Source of the DNA: Halobacteriales archaeon SW_10_68_16
Lineage (GTDB): Archaea > Halobacteriota > Halobacteria > Halobacteriales > Haloarculaceae
NCBI GenBank assembly: GCA_003023485.1
Contig: PXSG01000018.1
Location: 1-12,473 of the forward strand
Direction of reading: 5' to 3'
Length of the DNA: 12,473 nt
Below, one piece after another: positions 2,594 to 10,367 of the stretch; the stretch's first letter is position 1, and each line of letters begins with the position of its first letter. The notes beneath the pieces were generated by a model, which was not told where the DNA came from, did no database searches, and saw only the letters and a list, made by a program, of their open reading frames with translations. The translations under genes were made by a program, and so were the position numbers.

Positions 2594-3351
2594 GTGTCGC
2601 AGAGACCGACCTCTTCTCGATCGGCCTGAAAGAGCGGGACCGTCTCGACAAGGAACTGGGCGGCGGCCTCCCGCCGGGCAGTATCGTCCTCATCGAGGGC
2701 GACTACGGCGCCGGCAAGTCCGCGCTCAGCCAGCGGTTCTCCTATGGCCTCTGTGAGGAGGGCCACACCGTCACGCTGCTGTCGACGGAGCTGACCGTCG
2801 GCTCGTTCTTAGAGCAGATGCACTCGCTCGATTACAGTATGGTCGACCACATGCTCGACGAGAACATCCTCTTTTTGCACGCGGACATCGGCGACTCGAA
2901 GAACACCTTCTCCGAGGGCGACGAGGGCGACCGGATGGACCTCCTCAAGCGGCTGATGGACGCGGAGGTGATGTGGGACTCGGACGTCATCATCGTCGAC
3001 ACGTTCGACGCCATCCTCCGCAACGACCCCAAATTCGAGGCCCTGGTCCGGCAAAACGAGGAGCGCCAGGCGGCCCTGGAGATCATCTCCTTTTTCCGGG
3101 ACGTCATCTCGCAGGGAAAGGTGATCGTCCTCACCGTGGACCCGACGACCTTAGAGGAGGAGGCGCTCGGTCCCTTCCGGTCGATCGCGGACGTGTTCCT
3201 CGAACTGGAGATGGTCGAGGTCGGCAACGACGTCCGCCGCCAGATCAGCGTCCTCCGGTTTGCGGGCATGGGCGAACAGGTCGGCGACACCATCGGCTAC
3301 TCGGTGCGCTCGGGCACCGGCATCGTCATCGAGAGTCGGAGCGTCACATGA
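2590..3351 (+). CDS. arlH: Archaellum motor regulator ArlH (FlaH), KaiC/RecA-like ATP-binding protein
   Basis: ArlH is a cytoplasmic KaiC-like protein that sits on the ArlI hexamer and regulates motor assembly and function through nucleotide binding. The product has 253 residues, a usual length for the family. Walker A is GDYGAGKS at residues 37-44. The hydrophobic Walker B strand DVIIVDTFD spans 132-140. [11 protein letters not shown] and the later VIVLTVDP strand are typical of the RecA fold. The start ATG at 2590 overlaps the arlG stop (ATGA). The frame is open further upstream, but that extension lies over arlG and reads as non-acidic Arg/Gln-rich shadow sequence. The stop overlaps the arlI start, again as ATGA. 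No missing key residue is seen. Confidence 0.93.
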
Positions 3352-4948
3352 CAGACCACGGCACCCCGAACCCGTCGGACGAACTCCGGCAACACGCCGC
3401 CAGGCGTCCCCACCTGCGGGAGCACCTCCAGAAGTTCAAGCAGATCACGGGGGAGTTCCCGCTGTTCATCGAGGAGGCCGACGACGAGTACGAGTCCGAC
3501 CGGCCGAACGTCCTCTACCCGGTCGGCGGGCCCATCTACACGCACATCTACGGCGACGTCGGCCAGGACACCAAGTACTACGCCATCGAACCGGAACTCG
3601 ACGAGGAGGAGCATGCCGTCTTCGGAAAGGTCCGCGACCGGCTGCTCGAACGGAGCGTCACCAAACCCGCTCCCCAGGACGAGGCCGAGTACGACGACCG
3701 CATCGAGGAACTCCTCCAGGAGACCACCCGCGTCAAGACCCGCGAATCGGGCGGGGGCGTCCTGACGCGGCTCTCGAAGCTCACCGACGTCGGGAAAGTC
3801 GAGGTGAAAGAGGGGACCTACGAGAACATCCGCTACCGGCTCAACCGCGACATCGTCGGCCTGGGGCCGCTGGAACCGGTGATGCGCGACCCGGCAAACG
3901 AGGACATCCACGTCGTCGGCCGCGACCAGTGTTTCGTCGATCACTCGGTGTACTCGATGCTCGAGACCACCGTCGAGTGGGAGAGCGAGGAGGCCTTCGA
4001 CCAGTGGCTGCGCAACATGGGCGAGCGCATCGGCGACCCCCTCTCGGATTCGGACCCCATCGTCGACTCGACGCTGCCCGACGGGTCCCGGTTGAACGTC
4101 ATCTACTCCGACGACGTCTCGGTCCAGGGCCCCTCGCTGACCATCCGCCAGGGCGACGAGGTCCCCCTCTCGATCTTCCAGATCACCAAGTGGGGCACGC
4201 TCAGCCCCGAACTCGCCGCGTACCTCTGGCTGTGCCTCGAGAACGAACAGACGATCTTCGTCGTCGGGGAGACCGCCTCCGGGAAGACCACGACGCTCAA
4301 TTCGATCATGGCGTTCATTCCCCGCGACTCGAAGATCTACACGGCCGAGGACACCGCCGAGGTTATCCCGCCCCACGACACCTGGCAGCAACTGCTCACC
4401 CGCGAGGGCGAAGACGAGTCGACGAGCGTCGACATGTTCGACCTGGTGGCCGCAGCCCTCCGTTCGCGGCCCGACTACATCATCGTGGGTGAGGTCCGTG
4501 GCGAGGAGGGCCGGATGGCCTTCCAGGCCGCCCAGACCGGCCACCCCGTGATGTTGACCTTCCACGCCTCCGACATCGTCTCGATGATCCAGCGGTTCAC
4601 CGGCGAGCCCATCAACGTCCCCGAGACGTTCATGGACAACGCCGACGTGGCGCTGTTCCAGAACCGCGTCAAGCAGGGCGACGAGGTGTTGCGCCGGGGG
4701 ACCCCGTCGAGGACGAGATCGTCTTCCAGGGGATGAACAACTCCTACGTCCTCGAGGAACAGATCGCGACCCTGCTCGGTTACGCGGACACCCGTGACAT
4801 CTACGACGACCTGCAGTTCCGGGCCCGCGTCATCGAGCGCGCCATCCAGGAGAACATCCTCGACTACTACGAGGTCAACGAGATGATCGCCGACTTCCAG
4901 CGCGACGGCGTGGAGGGGTTGCCCTTCGACATCTACAGACAGGACTGA
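3348..4948 (+). pseudogene. arlI: Archaellum motor ATPase ArlI (FlaI), frameshifted with an internal deletion
   Basis: ArlI is the hexameric secretion-type ATPase that drives archaellin assembly and rotation. The first frame runs 3348-4736 and keeps all core motifs: Walker A GETASGKT at residues 307-314, the Asp box YTAEDTAEV from 331, Walker B DYIIVGEVRGEE at 376-387 and the His box GHPVMLTFHASD at 398-409. After VLRR (residues 447-450, to 4697) the frame changes to a meaningless Arg/Ser-rich tail that stops at 4736. From 4700, in another frame, typical ArlI sequence resumes (DPVEDEIVFQG...) and runs 82 codons to the stop at 4946-4948. From memory of the family, about 25 residues (the VTS..E..GY ... 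F.W stretch) normally lie between RR and DP. The phase change fits loss of about 73 nt. The ATPase core is present, but the C-terminal part is broken. It could be a genuine mutation or an assembly error. Confidence 0.85.
4733..4948 (+). CDS. C-terminal ArlI fragment, possibly translated by reinitiation
   Basis: This 71-residue segment begins MNNSYVLEEQI and ends DIYRQD, the normal end of ArlI (helical C-terminal region). Its ATG overlaps the TGA that ends the shifted first frame (ATGA at 4733-4736). It could in principle be made by termination-reinitiation, like the ATGA-coupled arlH and arlI starts. The methionine is probably just an ordinary internal residue of intact ArlI. The fragment lacks any catalytic motif and the beta-strands just before it. 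The stop overlaps the arlJ start as TGATG. Confidence 0.35.
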   Translation: MNNSYVLEEQIATLLGYADTRDIYDDLQFRARVIERAIQENILDYYEVNEMIADFQRDGVEGLPFDIYRQD

Positions 4949-6702
4949 TGGCGACCGAAGAGACCGACTCGACGCTGGAGTTGACCGCCTCGGGGGTCGC
5001 CGAGGACCTCCTCGAGTCCTACCGCCAGATGCACATTCCGATGGGGCGGTACGTCACGTTCATCCTCCTGCCGTCGCTCGGCTTTCTCCTGCTGACGACC
5101 GTCGCGGCGCTCCTGCTGGACCTGCCGCTGATGATCAAGCTCCCGATCCCGCTTCTGGGACTGCTCGCGTTCGTCTCGGCGGTGTTCTACCCGCAGATCC
5201 TCCTCTCCCAGCGCAGGCGCCAGCTCAACAACCGGTTTCACCTGCTGGTGACACACATGACGGTGCTGGCGACGACGAAGATCGACCGCATGGAGGTGTT
5301 CCGGACGCTGGCCGAGGAGGAGGAGTACGGCGAACTGGCGAACGAGATGCACCGGATCGTCGAACTGGTCGACACCTGGAACCAGAGCCTGGACGACGCC
5401 TGCCGGCGCCGCGCCAAGGAGGTCCCAAGCGAGACGGTTTCGGACTTCTTCGAACGCCTCGCCTACACGATGGGGGCCGGTCAGGCGCTGGACGACTACC
5501 TGCTCTCCGAGCAGGAACAGATCATCCAGAACTACAAGACGGTCTACGAGGGGACGCTTGGCAACCTCGACGTGATGAAGGACCTCTACCTGTCGATGAT
5601 CCTCGCGATGACGTTCGCGCTCGTGTTCGCGGTGGTGTTGCCCGTCCTGACCGGGACCGATCCCACGCTGACGGTCAGTGCCGTCATCGTCATGTACATT
5701 TTCGTCCAGTCGGGGTTCTTCCTGGCCATCCGGTCGATGGCGCCGTACGACCCGCTGTGGTACCCCCCCCAGAAGTACGACTCCCCGGTCGACGACAGAG
5801 TCAGGAACAGCTTCATCGCCGGCGTTGGCCTCTCGGCGCTGCTGTTTTTCATCTCGCTGGGTGGGCTCGTCGGTATCCTCCCGGTTCGCCTCGGCGACCT
5901 CGTCCCCTTCCTCTCGGCACCGCTCCCGCTTCCCTTGCTCGCGGCCATCCCGATGACGCCGCTGCTCATCCCCGGGGTCGTCATCCGTCAGGAGGAGGGG
6001 CGCGTCAAGGGCCGCGACGAGGAGTTCCCGAGTTTCATCCGCGCGCTCGGGGCCACCGAAGGGGCCAAACAGTCGACGACGGGGACGGTCCTCCAGTCGC
6101 TCCGGACCAAGGACTTCGGGCCGCTGACCCCCGCCGTCGACAACCTCTACAAGCGGCTGAACCTCCGGATCGAACCCGCCGACGCCTGGCGCCACTTCAC
6201 CGCCGACTGCCGGTCCTATCTCGTCCAGACGTTCTCCGAGATGTACCTGGTGGGCCGCGAGATGGGCGGCTCGCCGAAACTGTTGGGCGAACTCATCGCC
6301 GAGAACATGAACGAGGTGCTGAAACTCCGCCAGCAGCGCCAGCAGGCCACCGTGACGCTCATCGGCCTCCTCTATGGCATCACTGCCGCCTCGACGTTCG
6401 CGTTCTTCATCGGCCTCCAGGTCGTCAACCTCCTCTCGCAGATGAGTCTCGATCTGGAGTCCAACGCCGTCAACTTCGACGTCGCGTCGCTGATCAACAC
6501 CGAGGTCTACAACATCCCGCTCGTCGAGTTCCTGCTGGTCGTCGTCATCATGTTCTCGGCGATGCTCTCGGCGCTGATGATCCGGACCGTCGACGGCGGC
6601 CACAAGATGAACACCTACATGCACTTCGTGTTGCTGACCTGGATCGGCGCCATCGTTGCCATCGGTACGAAGGTGCTTGTCGCCACGGTGATCTCGATTT
6701 AG
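4948..6702 (+). CDS. arlJ: Archaellum membrane platform protein ArlJ (FlaJ)
   Basis: ArlJ is the polytopic membrane core of the archaellum motor, on which the ArlI hexamer docks. It is homologous to type II secretion/type IV pilus platform proteins (T2SSF domain, twice). The 584-residue product has hydrophobic segments at about 35-58 and 62-80, then a cytoplasmic basic/helical domain. Further segments lie at about 213-235 and 240-262, at 289-345 (two or three), then a second cytoplasmic domain (about 346-465), and finally at about 467-495, 527-547 and 558-583. Charged cytoplasmic loops containing the GQALDDYL and GGSPKLLGELIAENM segments match the family. The start overlaps the arlI stop, so expression is translationally coupled. 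No disruption is seen. It is the last gene of the operon; stem-loops follow. Confidence 0.93.
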   Translation: MATEETDSTLELTASGVAEDLLESYRQMHIPMGRYVTFILLPSLGFLLLTTVAALLLDLPLMIKLPIPLLGLLAFVSAVFYPQILLSQRRRQLNNRFHLLVTHMTVLATTKIDRMEVFRTLAEEEEYGELANEMHRIVELVDTWNQSLDDACRRRAKEVPSETVSDFFERLAYTMGAGQALDDYLLSEQEQIIQNYKTVYEGTLGNLDVMKDLYLSMILAMTFALVFAVVLPVLTGTDPTLTVSAVIVMYIFVQSGFFLAIRSMAPYDPLWYPPQKYDSPVDDRVRNSFIAGVGLSALLFFISLGGLVGILPVRLGDLVPFLSAPLPLPLLAAIPMTPLLIPGVVIRQEEGRVKGRDEEFPSFIRALGATEGAKQSTTGTVLQSLRTKDFGPLTPAVDNLYKRLNLRIEPADAWRHFTADCRSYLVQTFSEMYLVGREMGGSPKLLGELIAENMNEVLKLRQQRQQATVTLIGLLYGITAASTFAFFIGLQVVNLLSQMSLDLESNAVNFDVASLINTEVYNIPLVEFLLVVVIMFSAMLSALMIRTVDGGHKMNTYMHFVLLTWIGAIVAIGTKVLVATVISI

Positions 6703-9496: not shown

Positions 9497-10367
9497 TCAG
9501 TCGTACTCGTCGTGGAGGCTGTCGGCGTCGGCCGCGTAGTCCTGTGCCACGTCGAGGACGTCGTCGACGAGCCCCTCGAACGCGTCGGCTCGCGACGGCG
9601 GGTCCTCGCTGAGGTCCTCCAGGTCTTCGACCGTCCCCTCGAGCGTGTCGGCCGCCCGCTCGGCCGCGTCCTCGGCCTTGTAGTAGTCGCCCTTGTCGGC
9701 CATCGCGCGGGCGGCGTCGAGTTCCTCCCTGGCGGACTGGACGGTCGAGAGCGCGTCGTGGAGCTGTTCCAGTACGTCGTGCTCGTGCTTGAACTGTGTT
9801 CGCTTCCCTTCGAACTCCTCTTTCCCGATGACGTCGGTCGTCGTGGTCGCGGCAAGGTCGACCCCCTCGGTGATTACCTCCAGGGATTGACTCGTCTCCT
9901 CGAGGACCCGCTTGGTGTCGTCGAGTGCGCTGGAGTTCCCGCAAGGAGGCGACGGTCTCGGCCTGCTCGTCGGTCACCGCGACCCGCTCTGCCTCGTTGA
10001 TCGCCGTCTGGGCGTCGGACAGTTTCAGCAGGACCGACCGGTCGCCGAACTCGGCGGTGTCCGCCGAGACGTCGAGCAGGTCGTTCGACACACCGCCGGT
10101 GTAGATGTAGACCGCCTCCCGCAAGCGGTCCTGTGCGGTGTCGATCTGCTCGATGGCCGCCGTCCGGTCGCCGGATGGGGTCGGCTCCGGCGTCTCGGTC
10201 GGCGTCTCCTCGGGCGTCTCGGTCGGCGTCTCTTCGGGTGTCGGCGTCGGTGTCTCCTCGGGCGTCGGCGTCGCCGGTTCCGTCTCGCCTGTCGTCTGTG
10301 CGCCGGTGGCGCCGAAGCAGCCTGCGGTCAGTGGCGCGAGCGCGGCCAGGAGGGCCCGTCGTTTCAT
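9497..10367 (-). pseudogene. Tat-type secreted lipoprotein, frameshifted by one extra base
   Basis: The start MKRRALLAALAPLTAGC has an Arg pair, a hydrophobic stretch and a lipobox LTAGC with Cys17. This fits a haloarchaeal Tat-exported lipoprotein anchored on the outer face of the membrane. A Thr/Pro/Glu linker made of PEETPTET-like octads follows (about residues 25-67), then a helical acidic domain. At about 9938-9940 the frame breaks after ...AETVASLR. The natural continuation NSSALDDTKRVLEETSQSLE is read after skipping one base, and runs without stops to HDEYD and TGA at 9499-9497. Correcting one extra base in the CCC run gives 289 residues. Without correction the first frame runs on antisense to sucC as an unlikely 487-residue product. 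Function is unknown; no family was recognised. It could be an inactivating mutation or a sequencing indel. Confidence 0.75.
10191..10275 (-). repeat. 24-nt tandem repeat coding for the Thr/Pro/Glu linker
   Basis: Three consecutive 24-nt units (10191-10214, 10215-10238, 10239-10262) and a partial fourth are present on the + strand as CGTCTCGGTCGGCGTCTC plus TCGGG-type units. Units 1 and 2 differ at one base. Each unit encodes eight residues of the PEETPTET type, an extended, probably O-glycosylated-type spacer between the lipid anchor and the folded domain. The repeat number can change by slippage without shifting the frame. Confidence 0.8.

Follow-up and report, generated by a model that had tools for sequence, protein, structure and literature searches.

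A frame-breaking gap in the arlI gene of a haloarchaeal archaellum operon, probably a defect of the sequence record

The closest described counterparts of the gene analyzed here are the ArlI/FlaI motor ATPases of the archaellum, represented by the NCBIfam family NF058587 and by the FlaI ATPase structures 4ii7 and 4ihq in the PDB, which we take to be those of the S. acidocaldarius protein. As in the described system, the haloarchaeal arlI lies between arlH and arlJ and encodes the N-terminal and ATPase parts of the protein as far as residue 450; in contrast to it, the gene loses its frame at a gap of 73 nt, and its product covers only positions 1-426 of the 527 in the NF058587 profile, short of full-length coverage in one frame. 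A near-identical intact protein, P0003, differs from ours in having one continuous frame that includes the 25 residues absent here, and its residues 159-547 align with residues 114-504 of the FlaI chain in 4ii7. In P. furiosus, the C-terminal domain of FlaI binds FlaH (PMC6011876). Passages of PMC6011876, PMC1855051 and PMC5198076 describe no comparable case.

The window, by which we mean the whole stretch of 12,473 nucleotides that was analyzed, opens with part of a haloarchaeal archaellum operon on the plus strand. Its first gene, arlCE (2-1222, +), is cut at the left by the window edge, carries FlaC and FlaD/E domains (Pfam FlaC_arch and Arch_fla_DE) and is 97% identical to P0153. It is followed by arlF (1197-1643, +; NCBIfam ArlF, 179.8 bits against a cut-off of 110), a second arlF-like gene (1653-2114, +; ArlF, 135.9 bits, cut-off 110), arlG (2114-2593, +; ArlG, 192.1 bits, cut-off 110), and arlH (2617-3351, +; ArlH, 324.4 bits, cut-off 215), the last counted from its first profile-matched residue, with the true start slightly upstream. 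Downstream of arlI, an intact arlJ (4948-6702, +) scores 755.7 bits with NCBIfam ArlJ (cut-off 550) and aligns end to end (1-584) with relatives such as L007. Beyond arlJ lie a DUF5807 gene, three minus-strand genes (sucD, sucC and a lipoprotein-like gene) and some small genes. Seven of the genes in the window (arlF, the arlF-like gene, arlG, arlH, arlJ, sucC and sucD) match their families over nearly the full length, without small indels. The initial annotation had described arlI as broken in an otherwise intact archaellum operon; this holds for the archaellum genes arlF, arlF-like, arlG, arlH and arlJ, but it overlooked a second frame-broken gene, the lipoprotein-like one. The two arlF-like genes of the window, both above the ArlF cut-off, stand in tandem ahead of arlG, and L006 and L036 have a similar arrangement.

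The arlI reading frame (3348-4736, +; 462 residues) begins with an ATG at 3348 that overlaps the arlH stop codon and ends at a premature TGA at 4734-4736. Its residues 1-450 are identical to residues 1-450 of P0003, a protein of 557 residues (450/450), and codon 450, at 4695-4697, is the last to encode a family residue in this frame; the final 12 residues are out of frame and are not ArlI. From 4700 on, ArlI is encoded again but in another frame, with 82 codons (4700-4945) that match P0003 residues 476-557 at every position and a stop at 4946-4948, so that this 3′ remnant (4700-4948, +) ends at the native arlI stop, which overlaps the arlJ start. Between the two matched parts P0003 has 25 residues, or 75 nt, of which the window retains two bases, and 73 nt are therefore missing, a loss of the form 3n+1. 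These results agree exactly with the initial annotation, which had the frame leaving ArlI after 4697 and resuming at 4700, and had proposed a loss of about 25 family residues and, for example, 73 nt; its statements that the 82 downstream codons contain no stop and that the ATPase motifs are kept were likewise correct. GETASGKT, presumably the nucleotide-binding loop motif of ArlI, is present in the translation together with the ATPase part downstream of it, where intact P0003 aligns with the FlaI structure 4ii7, and the truncated protein scores 718.4 bits with NF058587, above the curated cut-off of 550. Outside the gap all 532 ArlI residues are identical to those of intact P0003; the initial annotation was also right in calling the loss recent. 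P0004, another intact ArlI, from a 19,086-base contig, disagrees with the window at a single residue apart from the gap.

At the junction itself (4695-4702, +), codon 450 is followed by the two left-over bases and by codon 476 in the other frame, and the bases at 4696-4700 form a run of five G. As judged from the protein and from the codons of relatives, the two sides of the junction would have at most one base in common: codon 450 is CGG in 42 of 79 relatives, and if it were CGG in the intact allele too, one base would be shared. A scan of the region 4500-4900 showed no repeat of at least 10 nt over the junction. The premature stop forms an ATGA (4733-4736, +) with an overlapping ATG that is in frame with the 3′ remnant, and re-initiation there, if it occurred, would read 71 codons; this ATG is a native methionine codon of the intact gene. 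In L003, an intact relative, a perfect 8-nt inverted repeat starts at arlI codon 450 and ends inside the segment missing from the window.

How ArlI is spaced in relatives bears directly on whether the gap is a family trait. A search of about 5.8 billion proteins, with 8,000 candidates scored, gave 5,818 with E≤1e-50, and in each of the best 120 listed the 25-residue spacing is present. Of 80 fetched loci, taken as the best among 187 confirmed relatives, 79 have the same spacing; the exception, L016, ends at the edge of its own contig. This is the result anticipated by the initial annotation, which expected an alignment gap of 24-26 residues and held that relatives naturally lacking the stretch would speak against a deletion; among the 80 loci and the 120 best-listed proteins no such relative was seen. 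The stretch is largely invariant in 25 aligned proteins. Of 146 genomes of the family, 49 lack an ArlI match at E≤1e-100; in 95 of the 97 that have one, the protein is spanned essentially whole without an internal stop. The other two matches are partial. That of G012 covers residues 1-481 only, and that of G104 adjoins a run of N: residues 341-555 align at positions 1852-1208 of L111, and 20 N at 1856-1875 end the match, so that G104 was rejected as a naturally broken arlI. A split or frame-broken arlI was seen in none of the 97 matched genomes. The best named match for ArlI among those listed is P0007, from Salinibaculum, at 91%; plasmid-borne relatives, at least 5,000 records, all fall below 60% identity among the matches listed, and neither the junction nor the right flank had an exact match in IMG/VR. 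Because the 25-residue spacing is found in the relatives' loci and in the listed proteins, and the matches in family genomes are whole, the ArlI gap, at the level of sequence, is a lesion of the window's record and not a natural variant of the family.

The lipoprotein-like gene (10367-9497, −), so named from a reading of its N-terminus and without a Pfam family at the Pfam cut-off, has its own frame-breaking gap of 113 nt at about 9927/9928. Over 147 codons the 5′ part (9927-10367, −) keeps to conserved family sequence; this frame is lost at 9927, and from 9928 the family sequence continues in another frame as a 3′ part (9497-9928, −) of 143 codons and a TGA at 9499-9497. The intact counterpart is P0123, a protein of 327 residues, which differs in possessing the 37 residues (148-184) that are absent from the window across the junction (9926-9930, −), a loss of 113 nt; its residue 147 ends at 9927 and its residue 185 starts at 9928. 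Identity to P0123 is 146 of 147 residues in the 5′ part and 142 of 143 in the 3′ part, or 288 of 290 outside the gap. Both substitutions, D108G and P199S, fall at places where 22 of 24 aligned proteins agree (P0123-P0146, 24 of the 30 matches, the six weakest omitted), as errors or relaxed constraint would give, and the 37-residue segment is present in all 24. A scan of the region 9750-10100 likewise showed no repeat of at least 10 nt across this junction.

We favor the explanation that the arlI gap is a defect of this sequence record, which we consider fairly probable, and we infer that both gaps arose in sequencing or assembly rather than in cells. The 73-nt gap would stem from a local misjoin, or from a stretch that is chimeric or thinly covered by reads, in a contig that is probably metagenomic, and the organism, a haloarchaeon, would then most likely have a normal arlI and an ordinary archaellum. 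An assembly artefact was one of three causes offered by the initial annotation, and it gains over an event specific to motility because a second frame-breaking gap is present in an unrelated gene and because both genes apparently exist whole on one contig. P0003 and P0123 are both jgi proteins, for each of which the longest contig is given as 49,006 bases, and P0003 has two contigs as its source; from the equal size and the same source, a single 49,006-base contig apparently carries both intact genes. The two gaps, of 73 and 113 nt, lie within 12.5 kb in functionally unrelated genes, and at the protein level only 2 of 822 residues differ between the window and the intact forms (0 of 532 in ArlI, 2 of 290 in the lipoprotein-like protein), a divergence so small that two large gaps seem disproportionate. 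A fault of the record would explain both gaps by a single cause; if they are real, both are very recent in one lineage. An artefact is also favored by the position of both substitutions in the lipoprotein-like protein at largely conserved sites, by the absence of internal stops from all 97 family matches, 95 of them near-complete, by the wholeness of the gene in 79 of the 80 loci, and by the fact that the only short protein among the 120 best-listed of the 5,818, with 481 residues, is labelled partial. An unrelated break elsewhere in the record and intact counterparts in other records, as a faulty record should show, were both found, but a decaying genome would show them too, and we regard the second break together with intact P0003 and P0123 as suggestive of an artefact.

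Several observations weaken the artefact explanation or speak for a recent real mutation that removed 73 nt from arlI and 113 nt from the lipoprotein-like gene in a strain or minority variant, an alternative that we consider less probable. K-mer assemblers normally produce only such junctions as are present in their reads. The seven other genes give clean, near full-length matches to their families, and a junction with at most one shared base, as predicted for arlI, resembles those of real short deletions such as end joining may leave. Variants do exist among close relatives, as is seen in the single ArlI difference of P0004 and in the differences between arlCE and P0153 described below, and the latter may reflect real length variation in or near the population. 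The inverted repeat seen at codon 450 in L003 could favor skipping of the segment, if this strain has it too, and the lost part aligns with the C-terminal part, up to chain residue 504, of the FlaI ATPase structure 4ii7. Against a real mutation stand the need for two large frame-breaking deletions in unrelated genes at very little protein divergence and the lack of any frame-broken arlI in the 97 matched family genomes (49 of the 146 gave no match). As to how an artefact might form, MDA chimeras joined nearby segments in direct orientation in 11 of 475 cases (PMC1855051); given this rarity we set the MDA chimera aside as the specific artefact and claim no specific mechanism.

A narrower form of the real-mutation account, in which both deletions are genuine and a viable motility-negative subpopulation lives beside near-identical intact cells, possibly with residual product from slippage on the five G or re-initiation at the ATGA, seems to us improbable; relief from phage or from an energy burden would be, for instance, an advantage of losing the archaellum under that account. 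A reversible contingency locus, the second of the causes first offered, finds no support, since the region 4500-4900 shows no repeat of at least 10 nt across the arlI junction, whose sides would share one base at most. Also very improbable is a compensated gene, in which a −1 slip on GGGGG at 4696-4700 or re-initiation at the ATGA would yield a shortened or split but working ArlI. Such a slip would indeed enter the downstream frame, and the premature stop does overlap an ATG in the frame of the remnant; yet the conserved 25-residue stretch, present in the sampled relatives, would still be lost, the ATG is explained as a native methionine codon, and a split arlI occurs in none of the 97 family matches. 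Least credible of all, to the point of being nearly negligible, is that a clade has a naturally shorter ArlI whose frame was misread, which is refuted within the sampled relatives by the spacing counts (79 of 80 loci, the other cut; 120 of 120 best-listed proteins) and by P0003, in which the otherwise identical sequence includes the stretch.

A real deletion would amount to no more than an ordinary loss-of-function allele of a known gene. The truncated ArlI would lack native residues 451-557, the last 107, which by alignment with 4ii7 belong to the C-terminal part, and archaellum assembly and rotation would be expected to be lost, leaving the cells non-motile; re-initiation at the ATGA, or a −1 slip at the G run of the junction, could still give some product, without the conserved stretch. 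There is nothing new in kind here: the gene is known, and its lesion probably has no biological origin. The practical caution is that, where one metagenomic record contains a broken gene, its neighbors and any intact sister contigs should be checked before a loss of motility is inferred.

Two smaller length differences were also seen in the window. Relative to P0153 (jgi, from a 5,431-base contig), arlCE lacks 9 residues (27 nt, in frame) of an acidic stretch at about 659-700, and 2 of 396 other residues differ; the left edge (2-40) differs as well. The N-terminus of P0153 is unlike that of the other ArlCE proteins compared (those of P0154-P0189 in which the motif was found) and finds no counterpart among the 80 fetched loci. 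The 9-residue gap could equally be natural length variation or one more defect, and we do not count it as a third defect because ArlCE proteins vary much in length. Similarly, the DUF5793 protein, in an alignment with four relatives, is 9 and 10 residues shorter than the nearest of them, L094 and L095; it too was not counted as a further defect, since it is at least as long as L096 and L099 at that site.
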